Origin: Tetrapyrgos nigripes
Taxonomy: Eukaryota > Basidiomycota > Agaricomycetes > Agaricales > Campanellaceae
Direction: 5' to 3'
DNA: 64,000 bases
Assembly: GCA_013368315.1 (NCBI GenBank)
Contig: JAACJM010000006.1
Coordinates: 434,001 to 498,000 of the forward strand
Of the stretch, positions 4,499 through 48,190 are shown in pieces (position 1 is the stretch's first letter; the number at the start of each line of letters is the position of its first letter). Both the position numbers and the translations under genes were made by a program. The notes under the pieces were generated by a model, which saw nothing but the letters and a program-made list of their open reading frames with translations, did not search any database and was not told where the DNA came from.

Positions 4499-6124
4499 CA
4501 GTGGGCAAAAAAATTGTCCACATGTTTCATACTTTTGCAGAGATTGTCAATTATAGAGCTACTGAATAGAGATGAGACAAAATGGTCAATGATGGCCTGA
4601 AAGCCCTTGATAAGTGCTATGATAATCTCCTTGTTTTGTGTTATTTGGTCAAATACCCATGGAGATATACTCAATTTAAAATGGTAAGTCATTTGGACAA
4701 TTTTTTGACATATGCCTTAAAATACAGAAAGTGCTTGCTCAGTACTTGGTATGCCCTCCTTTAGCCTTCAAAACAGCTTTGATCCTTCTAGGCATACTCC
4801 GGATGAATTTCTGACAATCCTCTTCTGTGATTTTCACCCACTTTTCTGCTGCTCTATCCCATATTTCCCAAACTCCAGATGGTGCTGTATCATACTCGTT
4901 GAGTTTGCGTTTGAGGGTTGTCCAGAGGTGTTCAATGGGGTTTAGGTCAGGAGACTGAGCAGGCCAGCTCATGCAATGGATTTTGTTCTCCTCAAACCAT
5001 TTGGTGGCTAGTTTTGACTTGTGTTTTGGATCGTTATCCTGCTGAAAAATGGCCATCTCCAGATCAACACCCAAACGATCCATGCTCTCCAGAAGATTGT
5101 TCTCCAAAATGTCCACATACTGCTCTGCATCCATCCTTCCCTCAACCTCTGCCATGTTTCCAGGTCCATCCCATCCCATACACCCCCACACCATGATATT
5201 TCCTCCTCCAAATTTGACTGTTTCCACCACATCTCTCTCTCCCATGGATTCACCTGTCCTACCCCACACAAACTGCTGCCCATCTGACCCAAACCGATTG
5301 ATTTTAGTCTCATCTGACCATATAACCTGTTTCCAGTCATCCACAGTCCAGTCCTTGTACTTCTCTGCAAATTTTAAACGAGCCTTCCTGTGAGCTGCAG
5401 TGAGTTTGGGCTTTTTCTGTGGTTTCTTGGTGTCTACACCATGTTTGTGAAGGGAATTTCACATGGTTTGGGTGGAGATAGCTTGGTCAAGAAGGGGATT
5501 GATGTTTCTGGCCACCTCTGCAGCGTTCCTGGCTTTCCCAGTGTTGATTTGTTTGATAGCAGCCCGTTCATCAGTGGTAGAGAGCTTCTTAGGGTGCCCT
5601 GCCTTATGGTTCTCCTTGTCAGGATACATCTCTTTGGCCAGAGAGGCAACCGTTGACTTGGATACTCCAGTTTGAGCAGAGATTTCCCTGGATGAAGCGC
5701 TAGTTTGGAGATGAAAGAGGACATTGTCTTTCTGAGTGGAGGTGATGGGTCTCATGATTTTATGGGGGCAATAGATGATCTGGATGTCCTTATATATGGT
5801 CTAGCTGACAGCTATGACATCATTATGATGTATAAATTGCATCACTGTACAGCTCCACTTATGATGTCATCTATGAGGCATCACATTGTGCCAATAGTAT
5901 TGATAAAGTAGCAACTCAAAAAATTGTCCAATGACTTACCATTTTAAATTTGGTATATCTCCATGGGTATTTGACCAAATAACACAAAAGAAGAAGATTA
6001 TCATAGCACTTATCAAGGGCATTCAGGCCATCACTGACTATTTTGTCTCATCTCTATTCAGTAGCTCTATAATTGACAATCTTTGCAAAAGTGTGAAACA
6101 TGCGGACAATTTTTTTGCCCACTG
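4499..6124 (-). mobile_element. Tc1/mariner transposon with long inverted ends
   Basis: A complete element of 1,626 bp. Its ends are inverted copies starting CAGTGGGCAAAAAAATTGTCC, and homology between the ends runs for about 205 bp (4499-4703 against 5917-6124). It is flanked by TA on both sides (4497-4498 and 6125-6126), the Tc1/mariner target. One minus-strand transposase frame occupies the middle. The two ends differ at several positions and the transposase has a stop, so the copy is probably inactive alone but still mobilisable. Confidence 0.95.
4739..5755 (-). pseudogene. Tc1-family transposase with one in-frame stop
   Basis: The minus-strand frame from the ATG at 5755 to the stop at 4739 is 339 codons, the usual Tc1 length. 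The N-terminal part has the paired helix-turn-helix region (S-REISAQTGVSKSTVASLA). The C-terminal part is the DDE_3 catalytic domain, with WSDETKINRF (first Asp), QQDNDPKHKS (second Asp) and NPIEHLW (Glu). Thirty-four residues separate the second Asp from the Glu, so it is DD34E. The only defect is a TGA at 5459-5461, between the two domains and in frame with both. An Arg CGA codon changed at a CpG would explain it. The enzyme would cut and paste the element at TA sites. Confidence 0.93.
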
Positions 6125-6289
6125 TATACCTTTGCGTTGAATGGAGAAGCCTGATCGAAACCTTCCACAGTCATATAAAAACTCGATGTCTTAGTCTCAG
6201 CTATCGACACTATACAGTGTCTTATCGCCAGGGTACCGATCTCTCTTCCTCCTCATTGATTCACTCGAAATTCCCCATTCCCAATTCCA

Positions 6290-7514
6290 ATGTCTACTCA
6301 GTCTGATTCTAATCCTCCCTACAAATCTATCCAATTCCGTGGTTCACCCTCTGGTCAAATCGTCCAAAAAACCTTCACTTACTCCCTGGACGACCTCGCC
6401 TCCAACGAGGTCATCATCAAAGTGACGGATAGTGGACTCTGTTTTACGGATATCCATATGTTGAAGAAGGATATGTGTTTGGGGCATGAAGGTGCGTGGT
6501 CTATGTGTTGTTCTGATAGCGTCTTCATAGTGTACACCCTTATAACTGGATTCATTAATGACTTGAATCCTTGAATCCTTCCAGGAGTCGGTATCGTTCA
6601 GGCTATAGGATCCGACTGTAAGAATGTCAAAGTTGGTGATCGACACCAACAGTAAGCCTTACTTTACTTCGCCAGCGCCATTGCTTCACTCATACACATT
6701 ATACAGGTTGCTGCGAAAAATGTAAATTCTGCCTCGGCCAAGACAACCACTACTGTAAAGGCGTCGAATGGTATGGCTCACACAACACCGACTCCGGTTC
6801 CCTTAGCACCTTCACCAAGCGCAAAGAAGCCTGGCTCTTCAAAATCCCTGCTTCCATGCCCGACACTGACGCAGCTCCTCTCATGTGTGGAGGTGCATCA
6901 GTATGGTCTCCCATTATCCAAAACTGCCATCCTTTCGATCGAGTAGGCATAATCAGAATCAGAGGCCTAGGTCACCTCGCTATACAGACCCTTAGGAAAA
7001 TGGGATGCGACATTGTGGTGTTTTCGACGGATGAGTTGAAATGCGAGGAAGCGCTTTCGTTGGGGGCAAACGAGTTTCATTCTGTAAGGGGTTTGAAGAA
7101 GGATTATGGGGAGTTGGGTATTGAGCCGGTTGATATGATGTTTATTTCTACGTCGGCGAAGATTCCGATGGGGCAGTTGTATCCTGTTATGAACCCGAGG
7201 TCGACGATTGTTTTGCTTACGGTGGATGAGGGAGATTTGACGTTGCCGTATACTCAGCTGGTGGAGACAGGTATGACTATTCTGGGGAGTTCTATTGCGC
7301 CTAGGTTGGAACAGTGTGTTTGAATTCTTTTTTTTATCAGGATTTTATTACTGAAAATCGTCTTTGTTTTTATTTATAGACAGAGAATGCACGTAATGAG
7401 GTCCATGTTATGGCGGAAACGTTCCCTTTGACCTTGGAAGATGTAAATGAGGCTGTCGAGAAGTTGAAGAGCGGAAAGATGCGATATTGTGGTGTGCTTG
7501 TCCCAAAGATCTAG
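6290..7514 (+). pseudogene. Zinc-dependent alcohol dehydrogenase (ADH6/CAD-like), damaged
   Basis: Exons read approximately 6290-6491, 6585-6651, 6707-7313 and 7381-7514. The protein follows the medium-chain, NADP-type ADH family: GLCFTDIHML carries the catalytic Cys, LGHEG the zinc-binding HE, GCCEKCKFCLGQDNHYC the structural-zinc cysteines, then APLMCGGASVW, the nucleotide-binding fold, and ETFPLTLEDVNEAVEKL near the end. Three things are wrong. Exon 2 ends at GDR-H-Q and does not join exon 3 in frame, with about eight residues missing. The Rossmann GxGGxG reads IRIRGLG. The last intron has no good donor at the position that keeps frame. The reaction, if it worked, would be NADPH-dependent aldehyde reduction. 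Most likely a recent pseudogene; an assembly error is possible. Confidence 0.75.
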
Positions 7515-38663: not shown

Positions 38664-41600
38664 TCATGGTCCTGTAACTGTCCGTGTACCAGCGTCGGAC
38701 GAAGAAGTTGTCGTAGCGACACTGACGGGGGTGCCTGCAAATCGTAAGGACTGACTTAACGAAAGATCAGCTGCAGATTTTAACTCGTCTCTCGACTTTT
38801 CCAGAGATACGATTAGGATGATAACAACTGGGTAAAGCGCCTACATGGAAATTTGAGCAGATTGTTCAGAACTTTTCGGAGAGGATGGCAGATGCATACG
38901 GTGTGACATAAGTACTTACCGAGATGAAAGGCATGGCTTCAGCGTAAGTCTGGAATGCTGCGCTTCCTCCTGTTGTCTTGAAATTTATGACCATGTACAC
39001 TATCTGTAAAAGGATGCGTCCATATAGAAGATCAGTAAACTTGAAGGGAATTTAGGAGAGACAATAGAGTCATAATGCTCGTGACGTTCTTACCGGGTAT
39101 CGGAAATCTGCGGGTACGTCATGCGGGTACACTGCGGGTACATGCGGGTCATGCGGGTCATGCGGGTCATGCGGGTACCCATTATCCTTTGCTTATCATG
39201 TACAATCTTAGTTGATTAAGCCTTATAATTACTCTTTTATTGTGTAGATAGTCTTTTAACAATGCAGAGCCTGTTATATAGCTATTTCACGAAGAATAGA
39301 ACGTGCTGTTGGTATTTACGTAAAATCATTCATACAAAATGATGGGATTAGGCGGTATATGTAAGGCTCAGCTTCACCCATTATTGACACTTTCTGACCT
39401 GCTCTGCGCTCGCCTTTGCCCGTCTCTGCAAATGGGACTCCTTGTAAGCATGAGTATCCAACGTTATGTAGCCTTAGTCACATAGAATATTCTTTTTGTA
39501 GAAATGGCTTGGTAAAAGCATCATACACCCCGCTGTTGATGCTATTTTCCCTGAGAGTGATTCAGAAAGTGACGATAGTTTTGATTTCACATTCAGTAAG
39601 TCAGTCCATTGATAGCAGGTTTATCACGCTACTCACAGCTGATATACAGGCAATACTGAAGATACACTTGTATTACATCAAGATGAAATTTCAAGACGTG
39701 AGTCTTATGTATTCACCACATCTGAATATATCCTTATACCATTTTGATTAAGATACAAATGTATCTACTTCTTTACCCCCTAATAATGACTGTTTTGTAC
39801 ACCGTGAGTGACACAAACACATTAAGTTGTAGGGACTAACCATGAATCCCCTATAGCGCCTGAAGAATACCTAGGAAATCCTGATTCAGGGGAAGAGAAA
39901 GATAATGGTATGTACTTCCCATTGGTAGTGGATATATCTTTCATGAATTTGTCCAGGGAATGCCTCAGACATGGATATAGACAATGGAGAGCTGGGTTGT
40001 CCAGAAGTTAGAACAAGTAAGAGTACCATTGTTTTGAAATCAGTTCAGCAGGATCTTACATGTTATCCTTGATTCCAGTGCCTCCCGTAAATGAATCATG
40101 CGAGGACAAGAGTGGTTAATTCTGATTTCTTTTCAAAATATTTATCTTTCTGACTTTCTTGTAATATAAGGCCTGCAACACCTACCTACACGTCGAGATG
40201 AAACCCAGGTCAGGTTGCCACAAGAGAATAGCATGCATATAGATTTTACAGCTACAAACGCTGAAGTTGTTCAATTTCAAGTCTATCGCGAAGGCAAGTA
40301 GGCCACATATTTGGATTCTCTCCAACCAATTTAAATACCTTCTATTCTGATACTTATAGGATACACATCCCAGATGCAATTCAATACACATGCACTACAG
40401 ACATATCAAAATTCAGTCCCTTCCATCAGTATGAGACTATCTTTTTGTACCATTGAGTTATTTGCTAACTACCTCTACAGTGCAGCCTAGTACCATTCCA
40501 ACAGATCCACAATCCAATGTGATACCAAGCAAATCTGCAGTTGTGCCCTCAGTGCAATCTACCAGTCACTCAGTTGGGAACTTACAAAAACCACTATGTC
40601 CACCAACCACAGTAGCTAGTCAAACTGTACCACCCTCTTCATCACACCCTCCAGCAGTTGTTCGAACTGCACCACTACCACCTCCAGCAACTAATCAAGC
40701 TGCTTGCCCTGTAGATCTCACTGATCCTGCCCGGCTTACTGCTTTTGTTCCTCTGGACCCTCAACCTGAACCACAGTGCCGACATGGGCATGATGTTAAT
40801 GTGCAATTTACTACTGTTGACAATTTGGAACAGGGTTTCTGGAATGGATGGCCAAATGGAAAATTTGCCATTGACCTTGATCATGCTACATACATGAAGC
40901 ATGGAATGCTAGCTGTTCAGTGGGCTACACGGAACTGCAAGGGAAACAATGGAAAGAAAAATCAAAAGGGTTCAATCCATGCTACTACAATAGCTGGGGG
41001 GAAGGAGAGCTACAAGAAGTGTCTTGGTGTCTTACGATGCACTAATCCTCAGTGTCAAGTCATTACTCGGCCAAAAATTGAGAAAAAGATTCTGGAAGCA
41101 CAGTGCTTAAATGAGTACTGTATATGTGGGTTCTCACTGGAACATTTTGACTGTGGAGCAATGTCTTTTCTTATTGAATATGCACAGGTGGGAGATGACA
41201 TCACCACACGGCTTTATCGTTACATCCATGCTGGTTGCCACAATCATCCTCGGATTCCATACACCAAACATCTCACTGCACAGGAGGCTAAAGACACTCG
41301 GCAGCATCTCGGGAACAACATGCACAAAAAGCACTTGGAGTCATATGAAGGAGGAGAGACTCTAGATGGTCCAACTCCACCAGCACCACAGTTGGCACAG
41401 AAATTTGCAAACATTGAAACCTACCGTTATGAAACTAAAAAAATGACAAAAGGAGCTACAGCAGAAGTTGGATGGTCATTCATCAACCAGTTTCACTCCT
41501 GGATCCAGCAACATGAAGATGAAGTCCAAATCAGAATCAATACTGTAGGAAGGGAGCCTGAATGTGTCATATCATTTCACTCAAAGTGGATGCAGGACCA

Positions 41601-44600
41601 ACTCTTGCCAAAAGCTGAGTTTGTTGAAGGCCCTTTGCCATTAGAGGGCATGCTGACTGATGGTGCACACAAGTATTGGGCAGATCCCAATGCTGTGTTG
41701 ATTTCCACTACTACATTCAATACTGTAATTGATAGATGGGTTCCCTCCATGTTCAGCTATGCAAATGGTGTTACAACTCAGCATTACCATTGGCATTTCA
41801 CTGCTGTCATTGAGGCTATTGCTGAAGCTGCACATGAACATAATGAGAAAATTACTGATGAGTTGTTTGCACTTGTGAGGGCACTAGATTTTCTATGGTT
41901 TTGAAAAAAGCTGATTTTTTTGATTAGGTTGTTGATTTCAGTGATGCTCAGCGCTTGGGATTTATCTCTGCATTCACCGACTATTTCATCCGCCAAGAGG
42001 ACAACACTCGGACACGCACTGAACTAGAGAATGCTGCTCAGTCACTGATCAAGGGATGCAGATATCACTTTGAAAAATCTGTAACACGTGTGGCTCGACT
42101 CAGTAACCATGTGCCACCTGACAGCAGAGCTGAGTTTGAAGAACTGTGCAGACAGATGGTTATAGCTGAGAATTCTGCTGTGTTTGATAGAGTTGTGAAG
42201 ATCATGAAGGAAACATGGCCAGGGCTGGAGGCATGGCTGAATTGGTGGTTGGCTCCAGAACATGCAAGTATGATTTTTCATAGCCAACGAAAAATGGACA
42301 GCAAACTTGCCTCAAAGCTTCCTGATACAACCAATGCAGAGGAATCTGTTCACTCTGTCATATACCAAATAGCAGGTTTGCAGTCATTTCTATACTTACA
42401 TTAATTATAATTCACTGATATTATTTGACAGGCAAAAACAAGGATATTATCCAAGGCTTTGATGGATTACTCAAGGTTATGCGACACTTTCAAAGAATGC
42501 ATGACTCATACATTCGTAAGTTGCAGTCTCAAGGACTTACCTTTGATTAATCTGTGAGACAGATGGACTTCCCATTCGATATGGTCGATCTCAACGCCAG
42601 CGTAAACTGGACCAGCTTGAGCGCTGTGAGGCAGAAACATTAACAGAAATTCCTCGACGTAGAAGACAGAGTTATAGCCACAAACCATCTCCCCGAAAAC
42701 GTGATCGATCTGCTCTCAGAGAAGGTCGAGCTCCTGACACTCAGTCTACACTGAAACGGCCCCGAAAACAAGTCAAGATTACAGTCCCCAATAGCTCTGA
42801 ATCAGAAGATGGATCACCTTCTCCTCCAGACATAGTTGACAAGCAGTTAACTCAGGGTCGCTACAAAGAGCTTTCTCCAGGGAAAACCAGACCAACTGAT
42901 TCATTCACATCCATAATAGTTAACCTTGCTGCTGCAAAGGAATTTGCTAGCTATCCATGGGCAAATAACTCTTGTTGGCTTGATGCATCATTGGAGATCA
43001 TTTATGTGACTTTGGCATGTCATGGACATTGGAAGGACTTCTCAAGTTTTGCTGCAGACATAACCTATCCAATTTCACACCTGCACAAAACCCTTAGCAA
43101 CCGCAGAGCTTGGCCTCTTTCCACTTTTCCAGGCTCTAAAGCTGGAAAATCAGTTATCCTTCAAAACATACGTGATACATTCAAACATGTCCTTGCAGGC
43201 CTTCCATTTTGCTTGTCAATAGCAGAGAACTCATATGCTATGGTAATTCAGTTTCACTCTGATCACAGTACAAATCAGAGATATTGATTGCTTATGAACA
43301 CAGGAACATGAATATCATTCTGCACTAGTAAGTCAAGGATAGTGCAATTTATCAAGCATGGCAACTGATTATTTACAGTATTGGCTATATTATCTCATTC
43401 GCCCACGAGGTGGACCAGTCAATCCAGAAGCTGTTAAGTTCTTTCTTCCTGTAGTACAAAGGCTCTCAAGCTGCAGTGAAGGCCATTACCAAGTTGAGAG
43501 TCCTTGGACCACATCTTCCACCTGGCAAGAGCCAGCAGCAAGATATCTCCAACTGTTTGGGGGGAAGATTGAGAACTGGTTCCAGTCAATTTTCAACCTA
43601 TCCTCAATGGAGGTTCCACAGGAAATCCAGGGTTGCTGGAGATGCCACACAAAGGAGGGCACCAATGATCCAGACATCTATTGCAATGGGCAGTGCCAGA
43701 AAATGGAGTTTATTAGCTGGATACCATCTGTACTCATCATCCGACCAGGTATGGATGAAAAAGGCAATCAACCAGATTGGGATTTCCCTCGTGAACTATA
43801 CCCAGGCTCAAAAGCCTCAGGTTCAAGAGATGGAGTGGTATACAAACTTGTGGCACGCATGTTCACAAACAAAGCACACTTTCGGTGTGTTACATTGATC
43901 CCAACAACAGGTGGGCAATCAGCAGTGTTTTCATATGATGGAATGGAGAATATGGGTTACAGTCAGCTTGTGAAAGGGAAGATTGGAGATTTACTTGCTG
44001 GAACAACAGGATACCAGCCTGATGGTTACCAAACAGTCTGTGCTGTCTATAGCCTCAAAGGTGGCATTGTAGCACAGGAAAAATTCCATGAAGATTGTGT
44101 GAAGATAGCCCTCCAGAAGCTGGACCTGCAGTTGGATGGGACCAGATCAACCACTCTGACAAAGCCAGGATATAGAGAAATGACCAGAGAGGAAACAGTG
44201 AACTGGAAACCACACATCTCTATCACAGAGTATCAACAAACCCACTCTGACTCCAGACAAGTGGTTAAACCTGAACCAGCACACTCCTACTCACCTTCCC
44301 CAGGCCCATCTCCAACTACACCTCTTCGGACAATTCCCTCAAGTTCCCCACCACCTTCAACACCCCTTCCCATTCTTTGTCGATGTGGTGTTGAGAATGA
44401 TGGCCATCGTGAGCTCATCAAACAGGTCACTGTCCAATGTGATAAATGTCACAGATGGTCACATTTGGCCTGCCTTGTCAACCGCATGGAACCAACAATC
44501 AAAGGGGAATTTCTATGCCATGTCTGTGATCCTGCATCAATGTTAGATACTTCAAGCTCACAAATCATAGAAAGTCTGAAGCAAGGTGTTCAATTGCGGG

Positions 44601-47600
44601 CTAATGTTGCTAAGCGTCTCTAGTAAGTAGTGTTGCATTGTCAGTTCTTCCATTTGACTAATTTGTGATAGTGCTGGCCGCACTGTCTTGGTTCAGATGG
44701 ATGCCAACACATTGTTTTATTATCCTGGCCGACTTCTTCATCAGGAAAAAGGCAAATGGACAATCAAAATGTGGCGAGGTATTAAGCATGAGAACGCTAA
44801 CAAGGTCTTGGAGAATATTTCTGTGAAAAGGCTGGTTGATGGATTGTATGGTGATCGTGAGGGTCGGCGATCAATCAGGGTATAAAAAATCTAGTACTTT
44901 AAGATCTTTTTTCATACTGATTATTTAAACAGTTGGGCAGGTTCATCCGAACACATGAGGAGCGTGATCCAGCAGATATTGCCTCTGATTGGCAAGTATA
45001 TCAGTACAACACAGAAGTAGACCGCGCTCTGTACAAGCACAAGGCTATGCTGCAAAAAATTTTGCATCATACCATCAATTCTGAATTTTCTGCACTTTCT
45101 GTGTCAAGTGTTCCAGCCCTTGCCTTGTACCTGAATGAAGGTAATCCTGGATATGCAATTTTTAGAAACCACCAATACATGACAGCAGTTACACTGTTTA
45201 GACGTCCTTGTTCTGCATACTTTACTGGTGGGATCACAACAGATGATCAGGCTCGCATTTTGAACTGGCTCCACATCAATGTGCAGTCATTTTTATCAGC
45301 CCCACCTAAAGACTTTGAACTATGCATTGCACATGCACGAACTCTCTTTTTGGCTCACTGTCACCGTGAGACTTTCTTGGGATGTATTGAAGCAGGGTTG
45401 TCAGAGCTGGAGAGAGAGCAGTCAGTTCTCCACCAAGCATGGCAACGATTGGTTGATTTTAGTGGGAAGACTGTGGATGGCAAAATGAAGAGATTGAAGG
45501 CAGATGTTGATAGAGAGGCTCTCCAAATTCTGGAAAAAGTCATGTTTGATAGATCACAGAAGGCTGGTGTGGCAGGAAGCGAACAATGGGGCCTGGATGT
45601 TGGTCCTCCTGAGGATTTGTGGTGGCCTTATGATGGTCCAGAGAAAAATGATCCAGATCTGCGTGTTGCTACAGAATCTGACCTTGAGGTGCAGTATTAT
45701 CTTGGCGTTATTAAATATTGTTCTTGCTAACTGTGGTTTAGGAGAGTGAATTTTGTAAAGCTGAAAGAGAGAAGATGGAGCAGAAGGTAAGGGAGAAGGA
45801 GGCAGAGAAGCAGAACCATGCACCTCCACGGCCAAAACCAAGGCCATTGACCAAGGAACAAGCAGCAGAACGTAGTAAAAAGGCTTTACAAGAAGCTGGA
45901 CTTACAGCTGAAAGGCCTGACCTTGCTAAAGAGAAAGTAGTTAAGACATTGCAGACAGTCCAGGAGAATGCACAGTTGCGTAGATCTAAGCGGGTGGCAG
46001 ATCAAACAAAAGAGACTGAGGAGACAGAGAATAATAAAAAATCCAAGAAACAAAGGAAACAATAATTTAGAATACTGATCTGGGAGGCATACTAAGTAGT
46101 TCAGAGTCATAAATGTAGATACAGAGTCCTTGTTATCAGCCTGCTGAAATTTTGATCATGAGATCCATGAGAATGATACTGAATATTACTACAGCAGGCA
46201 GGTTACTGTCTCAGCATGAATAAGAGTTCAGTCACACATCACAGCCAAAAGAAGCTAAGGCCAGATTTGACATTTTCTATTTTTTTCAGATTTTTTTGGA
46301 TTTTTTTTTTGTCAGAAAGACTGAACTTTCGTTCATGCCAGGACAGTAGTATATATGTGCAAATACCATTAGTTCCTTCCAACGGACTCTCATACAACAT
46401 AAAGGCGAGAAACACAGTATCCGCTAGGTACCCGCATAGGTGCCCGCATGGTACCCGCATGGTGCCCGCATGGTGCCCGCATGGGTACCCGCATGTGCAC
46501 AGCCACTGCGGGTACCATGCGGGTACCATGCGGGTGCATTACCAGCATCCACACAACATCTAAATCACTTCTAATGGATTGAAAATAAGGAATGCTGTAG
46601 CTCCTGTACTAATAGCCAGTACCTTGACATATTCAATGTGTAGAAATGAATTTCTATCATAAATTCTACTAAATCTTAGGCTAAATTCACATTGATCTCG
46701 ACTTTTCTAGGAATTGGATCTACAAATTGCCTTAGTAAACACTTGAAACATTAGCTCAGTGATGTATTAGAATGAGTAGACTGCATTTACAATGCGAATT
46801 ATGAAGAGTTTTATTCATGTGCAGGCTTCATTTCGAGTCTAAGGGTAATTTTGGTACATAACTCATAGAATATTGGCATGCAAAGAATGAAAATAGTCTC
46901 TACTGCATGCAATAGGCTTTTAGCAATAATATCCAGGCTGTTTTGTGGAGAAATACTTGAGTTATCAATGAGACTCTAATGTGAATGGGAGTAAGTGGCT
47001 GTGCTTATCCATGTACATTTGAGTTTCACTACACTTCGTTGAAGTCCATTTACAAGCTTTATGTACACTTTTACGCCTCTCTACTATGTTACAAATGCTC
47101 GTATGTATGTCATACATTGGTGAACTCAAATGATTACTGGTACCCGGGCCGTACCCGCAGCCCCGCAGGGGGTACCCGCAGATTTACCTATACCGCGTTC
47201 TTACCCATAGAGCACAATAGATAGACCCAAATTCGACCAATAGCAAGAGAACCTTCTGAACCTTGCTAACAGAACTCCCACTGGAACGGAGGATGATCTT
47301 GATATCTCGATAATGAAGCCTACGGCACGTTAAATGATTTGTTCTATTCGTAAGTCCGTGCCTCCACTGTGGCAAAAACAAATCCTCGACTCACCAAGCT
47401 CGATACCCAATGAAAGACGTAGAAATGAAATTCGTCGTAAGAAGTGGAACATTGACCACTAATCCATCATTGGGAGTCCCTATATCTGTTGGATCGCGTC
47501 GGATTCGGATGGCTAGCATCCCTGCATCGACGAAAGTTCCAACAGTAGACCCAATCATACAAAGTGATAGGACGCCTCTGACGAATAGGCTATGGGAGAA

Positions 47601-48190
47601 CATGATCCAGGCCCTCCACACGACTATACCGTCGCTTATGAGGAACTACTTGCCGTGAATATTACTGTAACACTCTACATCCATGAGACGAGATTGGACA
47701 GACTTTGTACGTACGTTCAGCCGATCCAAAAACCCATGCCCAATCAAGATATTCTTCGAAAGCTGCAATGCAGCGTCAAAATCAACGTTATATCCCGTTG
47801 TCGAGATTTGCAGGAGAGCATACTGGATATTGAGGATGAGAGATCCGGTGGAAATGGATAGCATGAGGATTATGAGGATGAGGAGAAGTATTTGAGGGCC
47901 TGATAGGTTCAAATTGAAGGGAAAGCAGGAGCGGGGTTGGGCATGTGGCGACTCGGAGGTTGAGGGCAAACCTTGAGGAGGTTTTGTTCTGTTGAGAAAG
48001 TCAAGATGTGGAGGAATGTCCCAAGCAGAAATTTTGCAAAAACTTACAGAAACACCCATATAGCAGTCAGGAAAAACGTGGCGTCTACACCGTAGAGTAC
48101 AGAACAAACTGCCACACCCAAGATTAAATCCATAATGGCCTCAAGATCACCGGAAGAGAGAGGAAGACTCGGTTGAGTGCTGCTGTCCAT
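38664..48190 (-). CDS. Seven-helix integral membrane protein with an 8.1-kb transposon in intron 5
   Basis: Minus-strand exons 48190-48048, 47988-47972, 47899-47715, 47645-47395, 47361-47205, 39003-38920 and 38840-38664 join in frame to 337 aa. Exon 2 is only 17 nt, and reading through the 72-nt intron after it would also stay open. The protein shows a short outer N-terminus (MDSSTQPSLPLSSGDLE), a first helix (LILGVAVCSVLYGVDATFF), a second (LLLILIILMLSISTGSLIL), WRAWIMFSHSLFVRGVLSLC, PLLTTNFISTSFIGYRAW, LLLLVEFGSIYCALW and further helices, then a Ser/Thr-rich tail. This is a widespread Agaricomycete 7-TM family without known function; a receptor role is only suspected. The transposon 39093-47195 begins one base inside intron 5, yet the donor G|TAAGAACG is kept, so the gene may still be expressed if an 8.2-kb intron can be spliced. 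Confidence 0.88.
39118..39182 (+). repeat. Left subterminal array (GCGGGTAC / ATGCGGGTC)
   Basis: Starts 25 bp inside the left end. GCGGGTAC occurs several times and ATGCGGGTC is repeated in tandem three times. It is the probable transposase binding region and matches the right-hand arrays in inverted orientation. Confidence 0.85.
39183..39431 (+). promoter_or_regulatory. Promoter region of the transposon gene
   Basis: AT-rich, about 250 bp between the subterminal array and the first ATG. TATATAGC at 39275-39282 and TATATGTAAG near 39355 are possible TATA boxes. A CT-rich stretch lies just before the start. No other frame is present. Confidence 0.4.
39432..46065 (+). CDS. 1,901-aa transposase: GCM-like zinc finger, DDE core, USP-like peptidase, PHD finger
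   Basis: Exons 39432-39443, 39502-39595, 39650-39697, 39753-39803, 39857-39907, 39957-40016, 40079-40114, 40171-40293, 40360-40428, 40481-41874, 41928-42375, 42432-42515, 42563-43242, 43304-43327, 43379-44622, 44672-44879, 44933-45688 and 45742-46065 sum to 5,706 nt, all in frame. Order: an acidic N-terminus; a GCM/WRKY-like zinc finger, about aa 285-440 (KCLGVLRC..C, CICGFSLEHFDC, HAGCHNH); the DDE core with candidate residues D574 (LTDGAHKYW), D649 (VVDFSDAQ) and E783 (TTNAEESVH), helix-rich between the last two; a basic linker (RRRRQSYSHKPSPRKRDR); a C19-like domain with Cys961 (NNSCWLDASLE), a CxxC pair (CWRCH, CNGQC) and a His box near H1225 (AHFRC...VFSYDGMENMGY); a PHD finger, about 1392-1442 (CRCG...CDKCHRWSHLAC...CHVC); a Tudor/BAH-like stretch (FYYPGRLLHQEKGKWTIKMW); and a Lys/Glu-rich tail. 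Residue choices are by eye. Confidence 0.87.
46066..46424 (+). terminator. 3' flank of the transposon gene
   Basis: Follows the TAA at 46063-46065. There is no further gene. AATAAT and T-rich stretches (46285-46315) are present, where cleavage and polyadenylation might occur. No strict AATAAA was seen close to the stop. Confidence 0.3.
46425..46545 (-). repeat. Inner right array of GTACCCGC repeats
   Basis: (G)GTACCCGCAT and GTGCCCGCAT occur in tandem and are followed by the inverse CATGCGGGTACC, so the array is itself palindromic. It lies about 650 bp inside the right end and resembles the left array at 39118. Confidence 0.85.
46546..47139. other. Non-coding right part of the transposon
   Basis: AT-rich, no gene seen. 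It lies between the inner and terminal arrays. Confidence 0.5.
47140..47195 (-). repeat. Right terminal array and inverted end of the large transposon
   Basis: GGTACCCGGGCCGTACCCGC, CCCCGCAGGGGG and GGTACCCGCAGATTTACC lead to the end at 47195 (..TATACCG), which is followed by the CGTTCTTA duplication. Confidence 0.88.

Follow-up and report, generated by a model that had tools for sequence, protein, structure and literature searches.

The window analysed here is a 64-kb stretch of the genome of the basidiomycete Tetrapyrgos nigripes (contig JAACJM010000006.1, positions 434,001 to 498,000, forward strand), and all coordinates below are counted from its first letter. It holds a transposon with inverted ends, flanked by a target-site duplication (TSD) and carrying one long, interrupted gene:

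39094..47195, + strand: whole element, 8,102 bp, delimited by copy boundaries and TSDs
39085..39093, no strand: left TSD, CGTTCTTAC, 9 bp, from copy comparison
47196..47204, no strand: right TSD, CGTTCTTAC, 9 bp, from copy comparison
39094..39117, + strand: left terminal inverted repeat (TIR), CGGGTATCGGAAATCTGCGGGTAC, from copy boundaries and comparison of subfamily ends
47172..47195, − strand: right TIR, CGGTATAGGTAAATCTGCGGGTAC, from copy boundaries and comparison of subfamily ends
39432..46065, + strand: transposase gene, 18 exons and 1,909 codons (exons 1-9 provisional), from a splice model and spliced relatives, with the whole frame in 5 of 15 copies

The element and its copies

The outermost letters of the element are CGG...CCG. 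A first-pass annotation had placed a transposon with inverted ends at 39093..47195; the inverted ends hold, while copy boundaries move the left end to 39094 and make the element one base shorter. The 8-bp duplication proposed at the same time gives way to one of 9 bp, the length seen in 17 of the 21 rows of our TSD table (the window and 20 other loci of the same genome). Two rows have 10 bp (L015, L019) and two have none (L017 and L024, the ends of the latter being guesses only), and L022 and L023, because they have identical flanks, are one insertion on two contigs. Among sister subfamilies a 9-bp duplication is present at L030 (subfamily C) and none was seen at L029 (subfamily B).

Fifteen dispersed, near-identical copies were aligned to the window, at 99.4-99.98% identity with gaps left out; the genome (98.5 Mb) holds further copies outside this alignment. 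Five of the fifteen retain the full frame and its splice dinucleotides, three have frame breaks and seven have internal deletions. The left-end ~450 bp also starts at least 19 further matches of 87-93% identity, four of which (L025-L028) are ~1.4 kb long and bear 9-bp duplications. Since full-frame, near-identical copies occur together with short derivatives that have their own TSDs, the family looks autonomous, recently mobile and the source of those derivatives.

Individual copies have histories of their own. The internal-deletion copies L018, L019, L020, L021 and L022/L023 have lost the peptidase and PHD parts described below, and exon 10, which encodes the GCM finger and the first Asp of the catalytic set, is kept in five of the six rows L018-L023 and nearly all gone in L020. 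The full-length copy L010 (C187:57301-65900) has right-end sequence of the same family, 87% identical, on both sides and therefore lies inside another derivative. L012 and L017 have a common right flank and different left flanks, with no duplication around L017; this points to recombination between the two or to an artefact of assembly.

Gene model and domain order

The 17 introns of the splice model are GT-AG except for one GC-AG. The 18 exons and the absence of stops agree with the first-pass annotation, the length being 1,909 rather than 1,901 codons. Exons 1-9 are provisional because intron 4 is just 29 nt long and because an annotated copy from T. nigripes, P0001, is spliced otherwise at its N-terminus. 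The annotation of P0001 also uses another frame within the peptidase part; this copy matches the window at 100% identity over its best local alignment, which spans 55% of the query region, and at 99.2% over the DDE part. The long frame is not due to chance, since the fifteen copies align as closely as stated above and five of them have it whole. Along the chain the gene encodes five parts:

40900..41307, + strand: GCM-type zinc finger, about aa 330-465, by profile match to MGCM1
41515..42618, + strand: DDE transposase domain, about aa 535-850, introns included; D583, D657, E793, C698xxH701
42889..44155, + strand: USP-fold peptidase-like domain, about aa 941-1325, introns included; C969, H1233, D1253
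44378..44527, + strand: PHD finger, C4HC3, aa 1400-1449
44606..45652, + strand: conserved C-terminal region, about aa 1476-1790, introns included, by alignment and profile matches

The order of the first four parts, proposed earlier from the letters of the window, is borne out by profile matches and predicted folds, most likely within one chain. The C-terminal region, like the octamer arrays described below, is an addition of the present analysis.

Relatives were spliced by alignment to the window protein, a method that favours like splicing. Read with that limit, L029 of subfamily B gives 1,731 residues without stop or frameshift, with introns at window places 654, 804, 832, 1058, 1066, 1481, 1550 and 1802 and three extra modelled introns that the window gene does not have. 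In L030, L031 and L032, which are more distant, the GCM, DDE and USP-like parts persist, and over them the frame is open in L030 and has stops in L031 and L032. L024, a further relative, has decayed and contains 8 stops and 3 frameshifts. All parts are probably made from a single transcript. Constraint between the window and L029 is similar along the whole chain. Two points weigh against our reading of the element: the synonymous divergence (dS) between the window and L029 is near saturation, and against the younger L024, with few changes, the ratio of non-synonymous to synonymous divergence (dN/dS) of the GCM part is 1.0, meaning no constraint. In that same comparison the value for the peptidase part is 0.28.

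Placement of the element

The predicted structure of the DDE domain, obtained from pieces of close relatives, has an RNase-H fold with ISCth4 as the nearest solved fold, and alignments place the catalytic pattern D, D, CxxH, E on it, CxxH being a mark of Mutator-like elements (MULEs). Catalysis by this domain is strongly indicated, and the GCM finger and DDE domain most likely belong to a single chain. A search of BFVD returned one clear match, the bracovirus protein O92526 (E=4.8e-10), which we take to be a Phantom MULE; a search of IMG/VR with the DDE domain found no relative.

These features recall MuDRF (Cantu et al. 2011, PMC3164196), a branch of MuDR from Basidiomycota in which a single protein carries both a GCM DNA-binding domain and a DDE domain and the TSD is 9 bp long. 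The present element has the same GCM and DDE chain, the two fused in one frame, the same 9-bp TSD (17 of 21 rows) and a basidiomycete host. We therefore consider it very probably a MuDRF-type, Mutator-like element, autonomous and recently active, with GCM, DDE, USP-like, PHD and C-terminal parts in one protein. Weighing against this placement, Pfam searches of the window protein and four relatives (one up to E=1, one up to E=5) gave no MULE match, and comparison by hhalign with seven MULE fragments from the host genome did not reach significance, nor did that with eight KDZ fragments. MuDRF itself was linked to MULEs only after four rounds of PSI-BLAST (PMC3164196).

The first-pass annotation had also raised KDZ as a possible affiliation, and this genome is rich in such elements, with at least 173 KDZ profile matches as against 26 MULE profile matches. 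Abundance aside, KDZ transposons make 8-bp duplications, whereas this element makes one of 9 bp and has a GCM finger; the Pfam searches that lacked a MULE match found no KDZ match in the window protein or the four relatives either. We reject KDZ membership on the duplication, the finger and the blank profile search, and hold it to be extremely improbable.

The GCM-type finger and the octamer arrays

A profile of the GCM region matches MGCM1 (1odh_A) at E=2.6e-7, and each end of the element has an array of one octamer:

39121..39176, + strand: left array, five copies of ATGCGGGT (GCM-binding octamer), by octamer count
46430..46535, no single strand: right array, five copies of ATGCGGGT, three on the − strand and two on the + strand

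For binding by GCM1 and GCM2, ATGCGGGT has been reported as the optimum (PMC8859918). It occurs 10 times in the window as against 0.89 expected, and all ten occurrences are within the element ends, with none in the gene and none in the 55.9 kb of flanks. By count it ranks fourth among 1,296 distinct end 8-mers, and each of 19 copies examined has 2-6 at the left end and 3-6 at the right. It is most likely, then, that the finger would recognise these arrays together with the inner TIR (CTGCGGGTAC), and binding of the finger to the end arrays is strongly indicated. An unrelated tandem repeat that matches the GCM octamer by coincidence would explain the counts too, as tandem copies are not independent events and the link between finger and word consists of one exact match and three subfamilies, seen in sequence only. 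However, the match is exact to a published optimum, and the word stands fourth among all end 8-mers yet is absent from gene and flanks, so we regard coincidence as quite improbable.

Sister subfamilies have other words at the places that correspond to these arrays. The ends of subfamily B have TGCGGACAC thirteen times and ATGCGGGT once; those of subfamily C have CCGTGYC eight times and no ATGCGGGT. In subfamilies A, B and C alike the TIR holds the first word, which begins at base 16, and the next words start at 29, 40 and 50 in A, at 30, 41 and 52 in B and at 40 and 51 in C, giving steps of 9-14 bp with a single exception of 24. Finger and array may thus change together between subfamilies, although three subfamilies, one with a weak word, are too few as proof. 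Two points count against this co-change. CCGTGYC is a degenerate 7-mer, of which ~2 would be expected by chance in that length by a hand estimate, and the GCM contacts named in print go to phosphates, so that the contacts alone do not fix the word. With finger and word shared, the arrays allow the kinship of transposases with GCM transcription factors to be tested directly, and the subfamily-specific words and tails form a natural series for following change in fingers, sites and accessory domains.

The USP-fold peptidase-like domain

Structure prediction, which the first-pass annotation had put forward as a check, gave a USP fold for the peptidase-like part as well as the RNase-H fold of the DDE domain, both from pieces of close relatives. 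The USP fold was recognised by Foldseek (E=2.5e-10) and by VIA-align in the predicted structure of a piece of the paralogue P0003. The catalytic Cys and His (C969 and H1233 in the window) are invariant in all eight aligned rows, including P0012 and P0013, and constraint here equals that on the DDE domain. We would place the domain in USP/C19 by fold and residues only, claiming no membership as an enzyme, and think it somewhat more likely than not that it actively deconjugates.

Several results weigh against that placement. The model is of P0003 and not of the window chain, with a mean predicted local distance difference test (pLDDT) of 67 and template-modelling (TM) scores of 0.35-0.44. The Pfam searches of the window protein and four relatives gave no UCH match. 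When the USP-like profile was compared with PDB sequences, USPs took ranks 1-4 at values that are not significant (E 0.13-0.25) and a lysozyme-labelled chain took rank 5; a query with the Cys box gave no match among PDB sequences.

The domain might instead be an inactive scaffold, as PAN2 and USP54 are, that aids assembly of the transpososome. PAN2 is among the close folds, inactive USP54 is among the weak sequence matches, and the Cys box reads NNSCWLDA where the usual USP form is NTCYMN. Set against this are the invariant Cys and His and the DDE-like constraint, and we judge a scaffold unlikely. The peptidase could also act on SUMO, as USPL1 does, instead of on ubiquitin, which we hold to be rather unlikely; against it, the Z score lies within about 1.5 of those of the listed ubiquitin-specific enzymes.

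Spread of the tail among relatives

Loci were counted by running exon-15 (peptidase) and exon-10 (GCM-DDE) queries against the same genome and merging matches. The former gave at least 59 matches in at least 51 loci and the latter at least 94 matches in at least 71 loci. Among the listed loci, 42 of 51 peptidase loci follow a GCM-DDE locus that has the same orientation, at a distance of 1.4-1.9 kb downstream, leaving 9 peptidase and 29 DDE loci unpaired. Those 29 of the 71 listed DDE loci have no USP-like match downstream and some derivatives lack the peptidase part, which counts against our reading of the element. Beyond this genome, annotation gives relatives of full length as one protein each in Collybiopsis and Rhodocollybia, and P0012 (Mycena metata) and P0013 match the DDE and USP-like profiles (the latter at E 3e-33 and 4e-16), so that the USP-like part is found in every spliced subfamily and in three other genera. 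Mutator elements tend to pick up fragments of host genes (PMC6446971), and one lineage of the element might, in keeping with that habit, have captured a host USP recently. The peptidase is nevertheless present in four divergent spliced loci (L029-L032) and the three other genera, and the 26 UCH-profile matches of the genome lie elsewhere; we consider recent capture very improbable.

The PHD finger is spread more narrowly. Its Pfam match (E=4.9e-5, 23.7 bits) falls just under the cut-off of 24, it matches the PHD of Set3 at E=5e-6, and all of its C4HC3 ligands are present. W1426 aligns with a Trp of Set3 and Bye1, the place being taken by Tyr in P0004, P0006 and P0009. It may read histone H3, a suggestion that we hold weakly to moderately. 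The finger is present in P0001-P0010 (partial in P0005) and in L029; a profile search did not find it in P0011, P0012, P0013, L030, L031 or L032, the search covering L030, together with L034, to the right end and L031 and L032 as loci without defined ends. P0011 has the C-terminal region without the PHD. In that region, one of six members gave a weak Tudor_2 match (E=0.15); a stretch YYPGRL...MWRG in it may form a barrel of the Tudor type.

PHD and C-terminal region are limited to one branch (subfamilies A and B, Collybiopsis and Rhodocollybia). P0012, P0013 and the examined loci of subfamilies C, D and E lack them, which counts against a general role; not every member of the family needs them. 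From the wide spread of the one and the narrow spread of the other, the USP-like domain looks the older partner, with PHD and C-terminal region as marks of one branch. In subfamilies C and E the PHD gives way to a different conserved region that follows the USP-like part, seen in L030 (about 5740-6610) and L032 (about 6020-6930); it is 29% identical between hand-spliced pieces and has no Pfam match. Its layout, with Ser at the Cys place, recalls a Ulp1-type peptidase; with Pfam blank we do not claim one.

Proposed mechanism and known systems

Starting from the observed ends, duplications, dispersed near-identical copies, open frame, domain order and conservation, we propose that the GCM finger would bring the transposase to the end arrays and that the DDE domain would cut and join, leaving 9-bp duplications. 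This pairing of end recognition with a 9-bp stagger seems to us quite probable. The USP-like domain would strip ubiquitin or a ubiquitin-like protein (SUMO) from the transposase or from local chromatin proteins, and the PHD finger would tether the complex to histone H3; as to this substrate and the tether, we make a tentative suggestion only, its odds somewhat short of even. Removal of ubiquitin from chromatin or from the element itself, and a choice of target chromatin, were ideas of the first-pass annotation. A wider reading would make ATGCGGGT the end-recognition code of a transposase lineage that predates or founded the animal GCM factors, with finger and array changing together, and would give one MuDRF branch a chromatin-editing arm of USP-like domain and PHD, which would take ubiquitin or SUMO off chromatin with methylated H3 and so allow insertion there. 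Taken jointly we hold this to be decidedly unlikely, having lowered our estimate because only one branch has the PHD and because the named contacts of GCM go to phosphates.

The first-pass annotation knew of no described family with this order. That does not stand for GCM and DDE with a 9-bp TSD, already known as MuDRF, and it does for the USP-like and PHD tail on a GCM-type MULE, which was not found in the open-access papers searched; by those searches the fused tail is new. The element differs from MuDRF as described in its USP-like domain, PHD and C-terminal region. The main text of PMC3164196 mentions neither ubiquitin nor PHD, and the tail may stand unreported in Repbase entries.

Other transposons offer partial parallels, compared here on the passages of the cited papers that describe them. 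Ginger1 transposases have a C-terminal Ulp1 or OTU protease, with both Ulp1 and PHD in Ginger1-9_HM (PMC2836005); they differ from this element in an integrase-type transposase, another protease class and, in the table of that paper, animal hosts. The same source describes a Trichomonas vaginalis protein that shares the join to Peptidase C19, on a transposase of the transposase_11 type and with no GCM or PHD mentioned, and Mutator elements that likewise combine a MULE with a peptidase for ubiquitin-like proteins, of Ulp1 rather than USP fold. Rehavkus, from insects and annelids, shares the MULE-like type, the 9-bp TSD and a PHD finger, with no GCM or USP mentioned (PMC6446971). The VTD deubiquitinases of Helitrons, for which activity is reported (PMC9741609), are also transposon-encoded papain-like peptidases, but form a separate deubiquitinase family with another active-site layout in rolling-circle elements. 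PMC2836005 suggests that transposons use ubiquitin or SUMO signalling, and a recently mobile family with whole-frame copies makes that suggestion open to tests with single-residue mutants.

Insertion sites

In the T. nigripes protein P0003, the start of a cellobiohydrolase (PF00840) is joined to a subfamily-B element, and a copy may sit inside that cellobiohydrolase gene. For the window copy, the 600 bases of left flank occur once in the genome, and a search with them showed no empty site. By eye, the host gene is on the minus strand, resembles a multi-pass membrane protein and is seen at 38992-39093 and 47196-48140, with the element in opposite orientation within a 54-nt intron. TSDs of other copies do not look like splice sites; that of the window repeats the 5' splice site GTAAGAACG of the host intron, so that both sides of the element keep a donor.

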